A stretch of 64,000 nt of DNA. Source: Parasphingorhabdus flavimaris. GTDB lineage: Bacteria; Pseudomonadota; Alphaproteobacteria; Sphingomonadales; Sphingomonadaceae. The stretch's first letter is position 1, and every line of letters starts with the position of its first letter. The position numbers and the translations under genes are program-made. Positions 53,782 to 57,196 of the stretch are shown here, in pieces. The notes under the pieces were generated by a model. It had not been told where the DNA came from. It searched no databases and worked only from the letters and a program-made list of their open reading frames with translations. The stretch is taken from assembly GCF_013371215.1 (NCBI RefSeq), contig NZ_JABWMH010000001.1, positions 62,001 to 126,000 on the forward strand, read 5' to 3'.

Positions 53782-53955
53782 CAGGATACGTTGCATTGCG
53801 CGTGCCAGTTTCTTGAATCCACTATATTTCAATGGTTTGGATGGTTTAAGCGCTGTTAATATTCTCCGGACTGTAAGGGATTTCGACACCGGACGGCTTT
53901 TCGACAAACAATCGCCCCCAGTCCACCAACGACATCGCAAATCGATTTGACGGTT

Positions 53956-53987
53956 TACATTTGTAGACAATGAAACTACAGATGTAG
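53956..53987. promoter_or_regulatory. Twin BlaI/MecI-type operators
   Basis: Two perfect TACA-N2-TGTA palindromes, TACATTTGTA (53956-53965) and CTACAGATGTAG (53976-53987), have centres 21 bp apart, two helical turns. This matches BlaI/MecI operators. A TTGACG -35-like box (53947-53952) overlaps the first. They lie 33 bp before the blaI start. Confidence 0.85.
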
Positions 53988-54019
53988 TCACTGACGATAT
54001 CCGTGGAGGGAAAAACATC

Positions 54020-54388
54020 ATGACCGAACGCATTAGCGATGCAGAACATGCGGTCATGGAAGTTCTCTGGAAACGCGCGCCCCTGACCGCGACGGAAGTG
54101 GCGGATCAGGTGGTTCAGCAGAAAGACTGGTCGCTTCAGACGGTAAAGACATTATTGTCCCGGCTGGCGGCAAAGGCGGTGGTCGGCACCGAGCGCGACG
54201 GTCGTCGCTTTCTATATTCTCCGCTGGTGGAACGGGATGATTATCTCACCGGCGTGTCACGGAATTTCGTGGACCGACTTTTCGGGGGAAAAGTCATGCC
54301 ATTGGTTGCCCATCTGGCCGAGGCCGATGAACTGAGCGCCGATGACATCCGCGAAATCGAGGAGCTTTTGAGGGAGTTGAAAAAATGA
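54020..54388 (+). CDS. blaI: BlaI/MecI/CopY-family repressor
   Basis: A 122-residue winged-helix repressor. It begins ISDAEHAVMEVLWKRAPLTATEVADQVVQQKDWSLQTVKTLLSRLAAKAVVGTERDGRRFLYSPLV, the classic family pattern, and ends with a dimerising, acidic C-terminus. In the paradigm it is cleaved after signalling by the membrane peptidase encoded next. Ribosome site GGAGGG. It overlaps the M56 gene by 4 bp (ATGA) and presumably autoregulates from the twin operators. Confidence 0.94.
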   Translation: MTERISDAEHAVMEVLWKRAPLTATEVADQVVQQKDWSLQTVKTLLSRLAAKAVVGTERDGRRFLYSPLVERDDYLTGVSRNFVDRLFGGKVMPLVAHLAEADELSADDIREIEELLRELKK

Positions 54389-56223
54389 GCGGCGAATTGA
54401 ACCAATGGATTTGGGATACCATGTTCTCGATGACCCTGCTGATGCTGCTGGTCCTGATGATCCGCAAACCGGTCGGCCATTTTTTTGGGGCGCGCATTGC
54501 CTATTTGCTGTGGCTGTTACCGCTCGCGCGGCTGTTCATGCCGACGCTGACTCTCGAGGCACCCGCAGAAGTCGAGCCCGCAGCCACATTCATGCCGGCA
54601 GCGATCGGATCGGATCTGGTCGCGGCAGCGCCGGCGCAGGCAACCACCTTCAGCGCACTCGCCTCGCTCGACTGGATGATGATCGCGACGATCCTGTGGC
54701 TTGGTGGCGCTGGTCTGCTGTTCATCAGCAAGCTTGCCTCCTATCTGCAATTTCGCGAAGATATCGTCGCCGACGGACGATTGATCGGTCGCCATGGCAA
54801 TATCAATATCCTCGAAACCGCAGCCGTTGGCGGCCCCTTGGCTTTTGGCGTGTTCGAAAAATATATTGCGGTTCCGACCCATTTCTTCCGCGACTATGCG
54901 CCGCGCGAGCGCGAACTGGCGCTGGAGCACGAGATTGCCCATCATGAATCGGGTGATCTGGCTGCCAATTTTGTCGGGCTGACGATATTGTCCCTGCATT
55001 GGTTCAATCCGGTTGCGTGGTTTGCCTGGATTTCATTCCGGCAGGATCAGGAAACGGCTTGCGACGCGCGCGTACTGGAGCAGAGCGGTCGTGACGTCCG
55101 TGCTGTTTACGGCCGGACGATCGCCAAATCGGCCAGCGGTCACCGGCTCGGCCTTGCCAGTCCGTTGAACCAGAAGGACAAGATCAAGGGCAGACTGAAA
55201 ATGCTGGGTCAAACCGAGAAGTCCACGCTGCGCCGTCGACTGGGGGCCGGTCTGGTCGCCGCCGGAACCGTCATCAGCCTGCCGCTCACCGCGACGATCA
55301 CCTATGCCGAAGCGGTCGATCCGGCCGATGTCGCGGTGCCGCTTGCACCGACACCCCCTTTAGCCCCGGCTGCACCGGTAGCGCCACTTGCTCCGGAAGA
55401 GCCATCGGCACCTTCTGCTGCTGCAATCGATGATGATCCGGTCAATATCACGATGCTCAACGGACGCAAAGACGCTGACCTGTCGAACGATTATGTTCAC
55501 AAGGTGAAGCATAATGGCCGGACGGTAATCCTGCGGACCGACCAGCGGCTGAGCGACAAGGAAGTTCGCAAAATGGTCGCGGAAGCCGAAAAATCGCGGC
55601 TCGCGGCGGACAAGGCGTTGCGCGAAAGCAAGACCGACCGCGAGCATATGGGATCGACCATGCGCGAGGTCGAACGGGAACTGGCTCTCGCCAGAAAAGA
55701 GATGGAACAGGGCTTGCGGGAGGCTGAGCGGGAAGTGCGTGAAGCCTTGCGCGAAGCCGAGGAAGTCCGCCGCGAAGCGCTGGAAGAAGCGCGTGAAGCG
55801 CAGCTTGAAGCTTTGGAAGAGGCCCGCGAAGCCCGGCAGGAAGCATGGGAAGCCAAACAGGAAGCACGTCAGGGAAGCCAGACAACAGCGCGCGTGTCGT
55901 CGATATCCTATAGCAGCCGCAACGCCGTATCCCGCACCACCAGCAACAAGATCAAGGGCCCCGATTGCGTGGCGATGAATCGCCAGATCGCGATGGGCGG
56001 CGAAAATGGTCTGGCCGGACAGGCCTGGGCCGTGGTTGCAGGTTGTGGCGGATTTGAAGTCAAGATCGACCAGGCCGCTGTGCTCAAACAGGCGTTGGTC
56101 GGCTTGGAGAAGGGTCGCGCCGAGGCGGTAAAATGCAAGTCTGACAAGGTCGAGCGCGCCAGGAAGATCAAGGATTTCGACCGCAGCATCGCCAAAGTGA
56201 AGGCACAGCTGTCGATGACCTGA
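54385..56223 (+). CDS. M56 (BlaR1/MecR1-type) metallopeptidase with coiled-coil tail
   Basis: A 612-residue protein with N-terminal membrane helices (about 12-30, 36-53, 95-118) and an M56 zinc motif HEIAHH (H182, E183, H186) with E223 in QETACDARV as third ligand. Another helix (about 286-308) precedes a Pro/Ala-rich linker (316-345). Instead of the penicillin-binding sensor of BlaR1 comes a soluble region dominated by a Glu/Ala/Arg coiled coil (about 395-500, many EAREA-like repeats) and a Cys-containing C-terminal domain (GPDCVAMNRQ, VVAGCGGFEVKID). It probably senses a non-beta-lactam envelope signal. Confidence 0.9.
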   Translation: MSGELNQWIWDTMFSMTLLMLLVLMIRKPVGHFFGARIAYLLWLLPLARLFMPTLTLEAPAEVEPAATFMPAAIGSDLVAAAPAQATTFSALASLDWMMIATILWLGGAGLLFISKLASYLQFREDIVADGRLIGRHGNINILETAAVGGPLAFGVFEKYIAVPTHFFRDYAPRERELALEHEIAHHESGDLAANFVGLTILSLHWFNPVAWFAWISFRQDQETACDARVLEQSGRDVRAVYGRTIAKSASGHRLGLASPLNQKDKIKGRLKMLGQTEKSTLRRRLGAGLVAAGTVISLPLTATITYAEAVDPADVAVPLAPTPPLAPAAPVAPLAPEEPSAPSAAAIDDDPVNITMLNGRKDADLSNDYVHKVKHNGRTVILRTDQRLSDKEVRKMVAEAEKSRLAADKALRESKTDREHMGSTMREVERELALARKEMEQGLREAEREVREALREAEEVRREALEEAREAQLEALEEAREARQEAWEAKQEARQGSQTTARVSSISYSSRNAVSRTTSNKIKGPDCVAMNRQIAMGGENGLAGQAWAVVAGCGGFEVKIDQAAVLKQALVGLEKGRAEAVKCKSDKVERARKIKDFDRSIAKVKAQLSMT

Positions 56224-56254
56224 AGTCTCTGGATCACTTCCCGAGGGGGCATAG

Positions 56255-56285
56255 GGGCGGTCCGTTTTGCGGGCCGCCCTTTTTC
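56255..56285 (+). terminator. Rho-independent terminator of the blaI-M56 operon
   Basis: GGGCGGTCC/GGGCCGCCC (56255-56263/56271-56279, one G-U pair) with a 7-nt loop is followed by TTTTT. Confidence 0.92.
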
Positions 56286-56296
56286 ATGGTTGTTTT

Positions 56297-57196
56297 ATGG
56301 GCTGGATATGCCACATCAATCCCATGGACTTTGACCCTTCGAAATATCCCACCGGTCTGTGCGAACAGATGGAGCCGCTTGTCGCCCGCGTGCTGGCCGG
56401 CAATCCCAGCCCCTATACTTATACCGGAACCCAGACCTATATCGTCGGCAACCGGAGCGACCGCGCGATCATCGATCCGGGCCCGGCGATTGACGAGCAT
56501 ATCGACGCGATCATCGCGGCCGTTGGCGACGCCAAAATCACGGCGATTATGTGCACCCACACCCATCGCGACCACAGTCCCGCCGCCGCGCCGCTGGCTG
56601 CGCGCACCGGCGCGCCGATCATCGGCTGCGCGCCGCTGGTGCTGGCAGATGACGGACCGCGCGCGGACGAGAGTTTCGACAAGGACTATAGGCCCGACCA
56701 GGTGCTGGCCGACGGCCAAACGGTAGCGGGCGACGGCTGGACCATCGAAGCGGTGGCAACTCCCGGCCACACGTCCAATCATCTTTGTCTGGCGGTGCAG
56801 GAATCCGGCGCGATGTTTACCGGCGACCATGTCATGGCCTGGTCGACCAGCGTCATTGTCCCGCCCGACGGCGATATGGCCGACTATATGGCGAGCCTGC
56901 AGAAGCTCTACGAGCGCGAGGACAAGGTCTATTATCCTGCCCATGGCAAGAAGGTGACCAATCCGCAGCAGCTGGTGCGCGGAATGATGGGGCATCGCAA
57001 GCAACGTGAACGGCAGATATTGAAGCTGCTGGAACAGGGCTCCGCGGCGATCGTCGATATGGTGCCGCAAATGTACAAGGGCCTCGATCCGCGTCTGAAC
57101 GGCGCCGCCGGGCAATCGGTGCGCGCGCATCTGATCGACCTGCAAAATCGGGGGCGGGTGACGTTATCGGATGATGTCTGGGCGATGGCTGAATGA
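56297..57196 (+). CDS. Metallo-beta-lactamase-fold hydrolase (LACTB2/GloB-like)
   Basis: A 299-residue protein. It has MBL metal motif THTHRDHS, PGHTSNHLCLAV, TGDHVMAWSTSVIVPPDG and HGKKV, plus a C-terminal winged-helix-like region (RQILKLLEQGSAAIVDMVPQMY), as in the LACTB2 ribonuclease/thioesterase group. Substrate unknown. No clear Shine-Dalgarno; ATG at 56324 (MDFDPSKYP) is an equally good start. It overlaps the DUF4230 gene by 4 bp (ATGA). Confidence 0.88.
   Translation: MGWICHINPMDFDPSKYPTGLCEQMEPLVARVLAGNPSPYTYTGTQTYIVGNRSDRAIIDPGPAIDEHIDAIIAAVGDAKITAIMCTHTHRDHSPAAAPLAARTGAPIIGCAPLVLADDGPRADESFDKDYRPDQVLADGQTVAGDGWTIEAVATPGHTSNHLCLAVQESGAMFTGDHVMAWSTSVIVPPDGDMADYMASLQKLYEREDKVYYPAHGKKVTNPQQLVRGMMGHRKQRERQILKLLEQGSAAIVDMVPQMYKGLDPRLNGAAGQSVRAHLIDLQNRGRVTLSDDVWAMAE

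Follow-up and report, generated by a model that had tools for sequence, protein, structure and literature searches.

A BlaI-type repressor gene and a coupled M56 peptidase gene, located behind twin operators in the 64,000-nucleotide stretch of DNA analysed here (the window), probably form a regulated-proteolysis circuit of the BlaI/BlaR1 type that has been rewired as a sensor of envelope quality. The predicted regulon would include a periplasmic protease/chaperone, as candidate operator sites stand before degP and before the gene of a small secreted protein. What the analysis shows directly is the genes, their sites and the conservation of both; that BlaI binds and is proteolysed, what the signal is and in which direction control runs are inferred. 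No published report of this circuit was found among the records listed in the literature searched, subscription journals and preprints lying outside its scope. M56/BlaI pairs readily receive the annotation of beta-lactam-resistance regulators, and the significance of this one lies in its non-penicillin sensor architecture, its predicted degP regulon and the way in which sensor domain and secreted target are repeatedly linked.

Two exact TACANNTGTA (TACA-N2-TGTA) sites precede blaI at a start-to-start spacing of 21 bp, exactly as the original prediction had described them (Table 1). Specifically, the window holds two such sites against 0.06 expected, a count reached by 1 of 100 shuffles. A search of the whole genome for further twin operators, proposed at the outset, found the motif at four places in 3,349,176 bases and the tandem pair once in 3.35 Mb; the remaining two exact core sites lie within open coding frames and were set aside. 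The operators had also been expected to persist in relatives that keep the genes. Among 34 scored loci, comprising 30 genus loci from the M56 search, one further genus locus and three from other genera, both operators are exact in 10 and within one mismatch in 24. Given the shuffles, the genome-wide rarity and the conservation across loci, a chance origin of the twin operators was rejected.

The operators putatively overlap the blaI promoter. The geometry TTTACA-N17-TAC(A/G), in which TAC(A/G) belongs to operator 2, recurs in all but two of the 34 loci, and the exceptions, a contig fragment with two in-frame TAG codons (L020) and a locus with operator 2 only (L144), were scored as misses. Placement of the -35 and -10 boxes in the left half-sites would account for the 21-bp operator spacing. 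The overlap is given here as putative because TACAGA, the second of the hexamers, makes a poor -10 and because a promoter scan left the TTTACA pair unlisted, its nearest promoter-like match being at 53883-53912. Further elements were observed in these upstream regions. TTTTCGACAAA occurs before blaI, and about a dozen relatives have TTTTCGAC(A/C)AA upstream of degP; an element common to both may be the mark of a second shared regulator. At loci L021-L033, operator 1 is immediately preceded in many of the long-type blaI promoters by an additional inverted repeat, AAATGTAAA...TTTACAT.

Table 1. Features of the blaI-M56 locus, in window coordinates
Feature	Position	Strand	Detail
TTTTCGACAAA element	53898..53908	+	also before degP in relatives
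TTTACA, -35-like hexamer	53954..53959	+	overlaps operator 1, 17 bp before operator 2 TACA; geometry in 32/34 loci
Operator 1, TACATTTGTA	53956..53965	+	<=1 mismatch in 24/34 loci
Operator 2, TACAGATGTA, within AACTACAGATGTAGTC	53977..53986	+	<=1 mismatch in 32/34 loci
BlaI/MecI-type repressor, 122 aa	54020..54388	+	PF03965, 7.8e-36
M56 membrane metalloprotease/sensor, 612 aa	54385..56223	+	PF05569, 1.4e-43; start 4 bp inside BlaI stop
HEIAHH zinc-protease motif, residues 182-187	54928..54945	+	invariant in 25-row genus alignment
Glu/Ala/Arg-rich helix, residues 391-500	55555..55884	+	composition; helix 391-494 in low-confidence model
C-terminal part with Cys528, Cys554, Cys584	55942..56220	+	three Cys in 27/27 aligned proteins
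Terminator-like hairpin, then T-run	56253..56281	+	-24.7 kcal/mol, z -3.3

The first gene of the pair encodes a repressor that matches the Penicillinase_R profile over positions 1-114 of 115, spanning the winged helix and the dimerisation domain, and that aligns with the MecI structure 1sd6 over residues 2-118 (1.3e-21). The TACA-N2-TGTA sites at its own promoter are those of the BlaI/MecI group at the level of sequence, and binding to them is predicted. The protein also matches the CopY/TcrY model TIGR02698 (1.6e-27), with a score of 96.3 bits that is below the equivalog cut-off of 121.95. In what we take to be the position of the dipeptide cleaved in the Staphylococcus proteins, N-F of MecI is aligned to H-L, and the dipeptide is not conserved in the window BlaI. 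PF03965 and PF05569 each have a single match in the genome at E<=0.001, and the operator sites therefore have one obvious reader. A weak match of the M56 query elsewhere in the genome (C2:533682) is of low complexity, lies in a DnaX-looking frame and was discarded.

The presence of a membrane-embedded HExxH protease domain in the second gene product is supported by the PF05569 match, by a profile comparison with BlaR1 (8exp, 6.9e-4) that covers the protease part and by a Foldseek match of the predicted model to 8exq (2.2e-6). This model is of low confidence (mean pLDDT 56.6, pTM 0.26) and was used for helix assignment and the fold search alone; the six Foldseek matches it gave at E<=0.001 were all BlaR1 chains. 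Residues E223, C226 and D227 downstream of HEIAHH are likewise invariant in the 25-row genus alignment, which omits two more close relatives (L027 and L030). Taken together with the 4-bp overlap of the two genes, these features bear out the complete circuit of BlaI repressor and coupled M56 peptidase with intact HExxH that had been proposed.

Following the protease domain and the last hydrophobic stretch, the M56 protein continues through a Pro/Ala linker, a short predicted-strand piece, the Glu/Ala/Arg helix and the Cys-bearing C-terminal part. Cys528, Cys554 and Cys584 are invariant in the 27 aligned genus proteins, which range in length from 596 to 729 aa (the 30 loci less L014, L020 and L025, which the extraction missed). 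The Glu/Ala/Arg helix with a Cys-bearing end, read earlier as a sensor other than a penicillin-binding one, is thus retained and refined to three invariant cysteines. A transpeptidase-like fold was sought in this region and not seen. Pfam gave no penicillin-binding domain in the M56 protein, motif inspection of its periplasmic part found no SxxK/SxN/KTG set, and the 36 matches listed in the fold search, obtained with the low-confidence model and given without aligned ranges, included no PBP/OXA entries apart from BlaR1. On these grounds a penicillin sensor was rejected as the C-terminus of the protein. The NF000326 model, which has a cut-off of 400, scores 86.9 bits, and the match is confined to residues 139-290; the class D beta-lactamase-like domain that forms the C-terminus of BlaR1/MecR1 receptors and bears SxxK, SxN and KTG was not found.

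With respect to the end of the operon, the terminator of the original prediction is upheld by a hairpin with a T-run, which 1 of 200 shuffles folded equally well, but not by a simple terminator scan, which left it unlisted and found three sites versus 3.3 in shuffles. Past this hairpin lies a gene (56303-57196) for a metallo-beta-lactamase-superfamily hydrolase with a winged-helix tail (PF17778). Membership of that superfamily is no evidence of a beta-lactamase; the earlier remark that no beta-lactamase gene is adjacent needs to be qualified by this neighbour. An M56 match was obtained in 30 of 31 other genus genomes, the exception (G001) being 89% complete. At the 30 genus loci, the metallo-beta-lactamase-fold hydrolase adjoins M56 in all 30, with blaI present in 29 and glutaredoxin in 27, counts that, like the others drawn from genus genomes, are not independent since the genomes are related; the missing blaI and glutaredoxin neighbours reflect loci at contig ends. 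The three loci from other genera all contain blaI, and one (G032) the metallo-beta-lactamase gene. Both the twin sites and the gene pair persist across the genus and extend to three other genera of the same family, and the locus is stable in its genus, presumably the Parasphingorhabdus/Sphingorhabdus group.

A scan of the genome with GACTACANNTGTAGTC, allowing up to three mismatches, returned 23 places, mostly with three mismatches. On contig C1, outside the window, GATTACACTCGTAGTC starts 57 bp before the gene of a 145-aa protein whose beginning resembles a signal peptide; GACTACATTTGTCGTC lies between hflC and degP. Another place with three mismatches, 38 bp before a listed GGDEF-type frame start (G000:C2:663868), was left as chance. 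Across 32 genus genomes, the extended operator GAYTACANNYGTMGTC occurs exactly at 35 places, 27 before the small protein, five between hflC and degP and three elsewhere, and it yielded 36 strand-hits versus seven for a reversed-pattern control. The three single-relative places (L080, L109 and L110) were set aside, being fewer than that control yields. The small protein itself is found in 30 of the 32 genomes, and in all 30 it is preceded by a site that departs from GATTACANNYGTAGTC, read on either strand, by at most one mismatch; 27 of these are exact, and G015, G025 and G020 complete the set. The twelve fixed positions of these sites are conserved at 0.99, a figure that is partly so by construction because the sites were found by a pattern, versus 0.66 and 0.64 in the 40-base flanks. 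The frame of the small protein is split in G003; G017 and G022 are without it and have M56, and the incomplete G001 has both target sites and no M56 match.

The small protein is predicted to form a helical hairpin (mean pLDDT 82), and its alignment (A2, 18 of 20 extracted proteins) contains Met at heptad spacing and an N-terminal His patch. A Pfam search gave no match above a cut-off, and a fold search gave 286 matches at E<=10 with none at E<=0.001. Its closest counterparts in named records include those of Parasphingorhabdus marina DSM 22363 and Sphingorhabdus spp. 109 and EL138.

The five exact extended-operator places in front of degP all read GACTACANNTGTCGTC. Sites with up to three mismatches precede degP at 26 of 27 genus loci with complete upstream regions, in 24 of the 26 between -256 and -258 relative to a GTG assumed as the start, and at the remaining locus a copy with five mismatches stands at -257; the 27 of 32 leave out L116, L139 and L140, where the upstream is missing or the start not reached, and two genomes given no degP locus. 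Markov shuffles gave up to three mismatches in 15 of 3000 and up to two in none, and control positions in the same loci gave no matches in 100,877. In other genera, where 30 genomes were queried and five had no degP match at the cut-off, 5 of the remaining 25 carry a site within three mismatches, compared with one match in 92,089 control positions and with a mean of 0.41 loci (maximum 3) in 200 runs of resampled upstreams. These sites are at -133 (G033 and G062, the latter a good site), -55 (G148), -50 (G285) and, inside hflC, -207 (G094). G032 and G035 possess the BlaI/M56 pair and lack the degP site, and since the site is conserved in the genus but missing from these two, degP would likely belong to the regulon in the genus, not universally. 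The genus site marks the left edge of a conserved upstream block, about 46 bp before TTGCGAA, a guessed -35. Between the site and degP, L111-L138 share a conserved ATTCAA..TTC.GTTCAT block of direct-repeat appearance, possibly a response-regulator site. Overall, where the original prediction had named the operon itself or distant genes as the target, the candidate sites point to both, with at least one and probably two distant targets in addition to the operon.

A further line of evidence came from a profile search with the small protein across 296 genomes of the order, which gave eight matches: two in the genus, two free-standing in one other genus and four in which it forms the C-terminal part of M56 proteins from a different lineage. 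By BLASTP, the small protein matches three of these four tails at 2e-16 to 2e-14 (the fourth, L184, was outside the comparison), and a VT...L(L/I)..(A/I)P.M..GA stretch, which is not simple coil, is common to the alignments. All four M56 genes (L183, L184, L185 and L188) have a BlaI-like neighbour, named by inspection of its sequence. Sites of TACA..TGTA type accompany them: L183 and L184 have twins at spacings of 16 and 17 bp, and L185 and L188 show a single clear site apiece. The four make up a second BlaI-like/M56 lineage in other Sphingomonadaceae. The free-standing copies have operator-like sites upstream, the exact TACAAGTGTA in G148 and two one-mismatch sites in G285. An M56 protein from another family (L145, G039) has what read as ankyrin-like repeats for an outer part, again with TACA..TGTA sites, and sensor parts seem to be exchanged.

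The sensor of BlaR1 resembles class D beta-lactamases according to PMC7593790, and in our reading the small-protein domain would, as an M56 tail, present a parallel to it. For the sensor of the window, homology to the small protein was not demonstrable (E 0.038). A tentative extension, which we hold as no better than possible, is that Sphingomonadaceae have a periplasmic folding response that works by BlaI proteolysis, in which the helical outer domains of a family of M56 sensors are kin to, or exchangeable with, the induced small protein, the sensor carries a copy of the effector's binding domain much as BlaR1 carries one that is beta-lactamase-like, and DegP belongs to the regulon.

In the mechanism that we propose, BlaI dimers would at rest occupy both operators at the blaI-M56 promoter, as well as one operator each in front of the small-protein gene and degP. 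The C-terminal part of M56 would read a signal in the periplasm, most likely envelope protein that is misfolded or damaged; possibly the three-Cys part would perceive thiol or metal damage. The M56 zinc protease would then inactivate BlaI, and the small protein would rise through lost repression. Expression of degP would change through lost repression or through loss of a BlaI effect like that of PetR, considered here because the genus degP site is far upstream of the likely promoter. More repressor and sensor would be produced, closing the loop. That degP and a periplasmic protein are among the predicted targets lends support to envelope stress as the putative signal suggested earlier.

Three other explanations deserve consideration. 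BlaI might control its own operon and the small protein only, the degP element being that of another regulator or a leftover terminator. The far-upstream position of the site, its deviant half (mostly TGTCGT), its resemblance, together with a T-run, to a weak terminator hairpin and its lack before degP in G032 and G035 all speak for this. We nonetheless regard it as rather doubtful: the inner TACA..TGT letters are conserved while the outer stem is broken in some loci, the distance to degP is constant while that to hflC varies, being about 20 bp in G000 and about 480 bp in G015, and in other genera the site turns up again before degP, at positions -133, -55 and -50.

It also seems unlikely that the circuit serves copper or silver stress, with the three-Cys part sensing periplasmic metal, the Met/His-bearing small protein binding it and BlaI acting like CopY or PetR. 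Such a role would agree with the three invariant Cys of the sensor, the heptad Met and N-terminal His patch of the small protein, the sub-threshold CopY/TcrY match (1.6e-27) and the copper link of PetR/PetP described in PMC7896320. Against these stand the four exact core sites, which are the two operators and two intragenic places with no metal gene marked, and the degP target, which suits protein damage at least equally well. Retention of the classical beta-lactam or cell-wall signal by another route is very improbable. The families of BlaI and M56 and the adjoining metallo-beta-lactamase-fold hydrolase speak for it, and in one genome (G019, L110) an operator-like palindrome lies about 41 bp before a lipoprotein that resembles, by eye, a serine beta-lactamase-family hydrolase. 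This palindrome is, however, one of the three extra places that fall under the reversed-pattern control, the hydrolase gene is beyond the hairpin, and the sensor has neither a Pfam penicillin-binding domain nor the SxxK/SxN/KTG set nor, BlaR1 aside, a PBP/OXA entry among its 36 listed fold matches. If the envelope-quality circuit that we favour is true, a proteolysis-driven branch would join the envelope stress systems of alphaproteobacteria, and caution would be due in equating blaR1 annotation with resistance.

In terms of known systems, the locus shares with BlaI/BlaR1 and MecI/MecR1 of Staphylococcus and Bacillus, whose classical operator consensus is TACA-N2-TGTA, the repressor family, an M56 protease with HExxH and E/CD motif and the coupling of the genes, and in BlaI/BlaR1 as here a sensor-type domain resembles a secreted protein. 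It differs from BlaI/BlaR1 in having a helix and a three-Cys part rather than a class D beta-lactamase-like sensor, and in its predicted targets elsewhere in the genome, a periplasmic helical protein and probably degP. CopY, the copper regulator of Enterococcus, belongs to the same transcription factor family and shares the operator core, the cop box; it itself senses metal, whereas the window BlaI falls under the CopY cut-off. The Cpx and sigma-E systems of Enterobacteria have a periplasmic sensor that controls DegP and a small periplasmic helical protein (CpxP/Spy); their parts are unrelated to those described here, and their signal passes through a phosphorelay or an anti-sigma factor rather than, as proposed here, through repressor proteolysis. 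A BlaI/BlaR1-like pair with no beta-lactam role is already known in PetR/PetP of Synechocystis, which PMC7896320 presents as a copper switch with a small regulon, PetR repressing one gene and activating another. The targets of that pair are photosynthetic and its cue is copper, whereas the distant targets predicted here, which are new, belong to the envelope.
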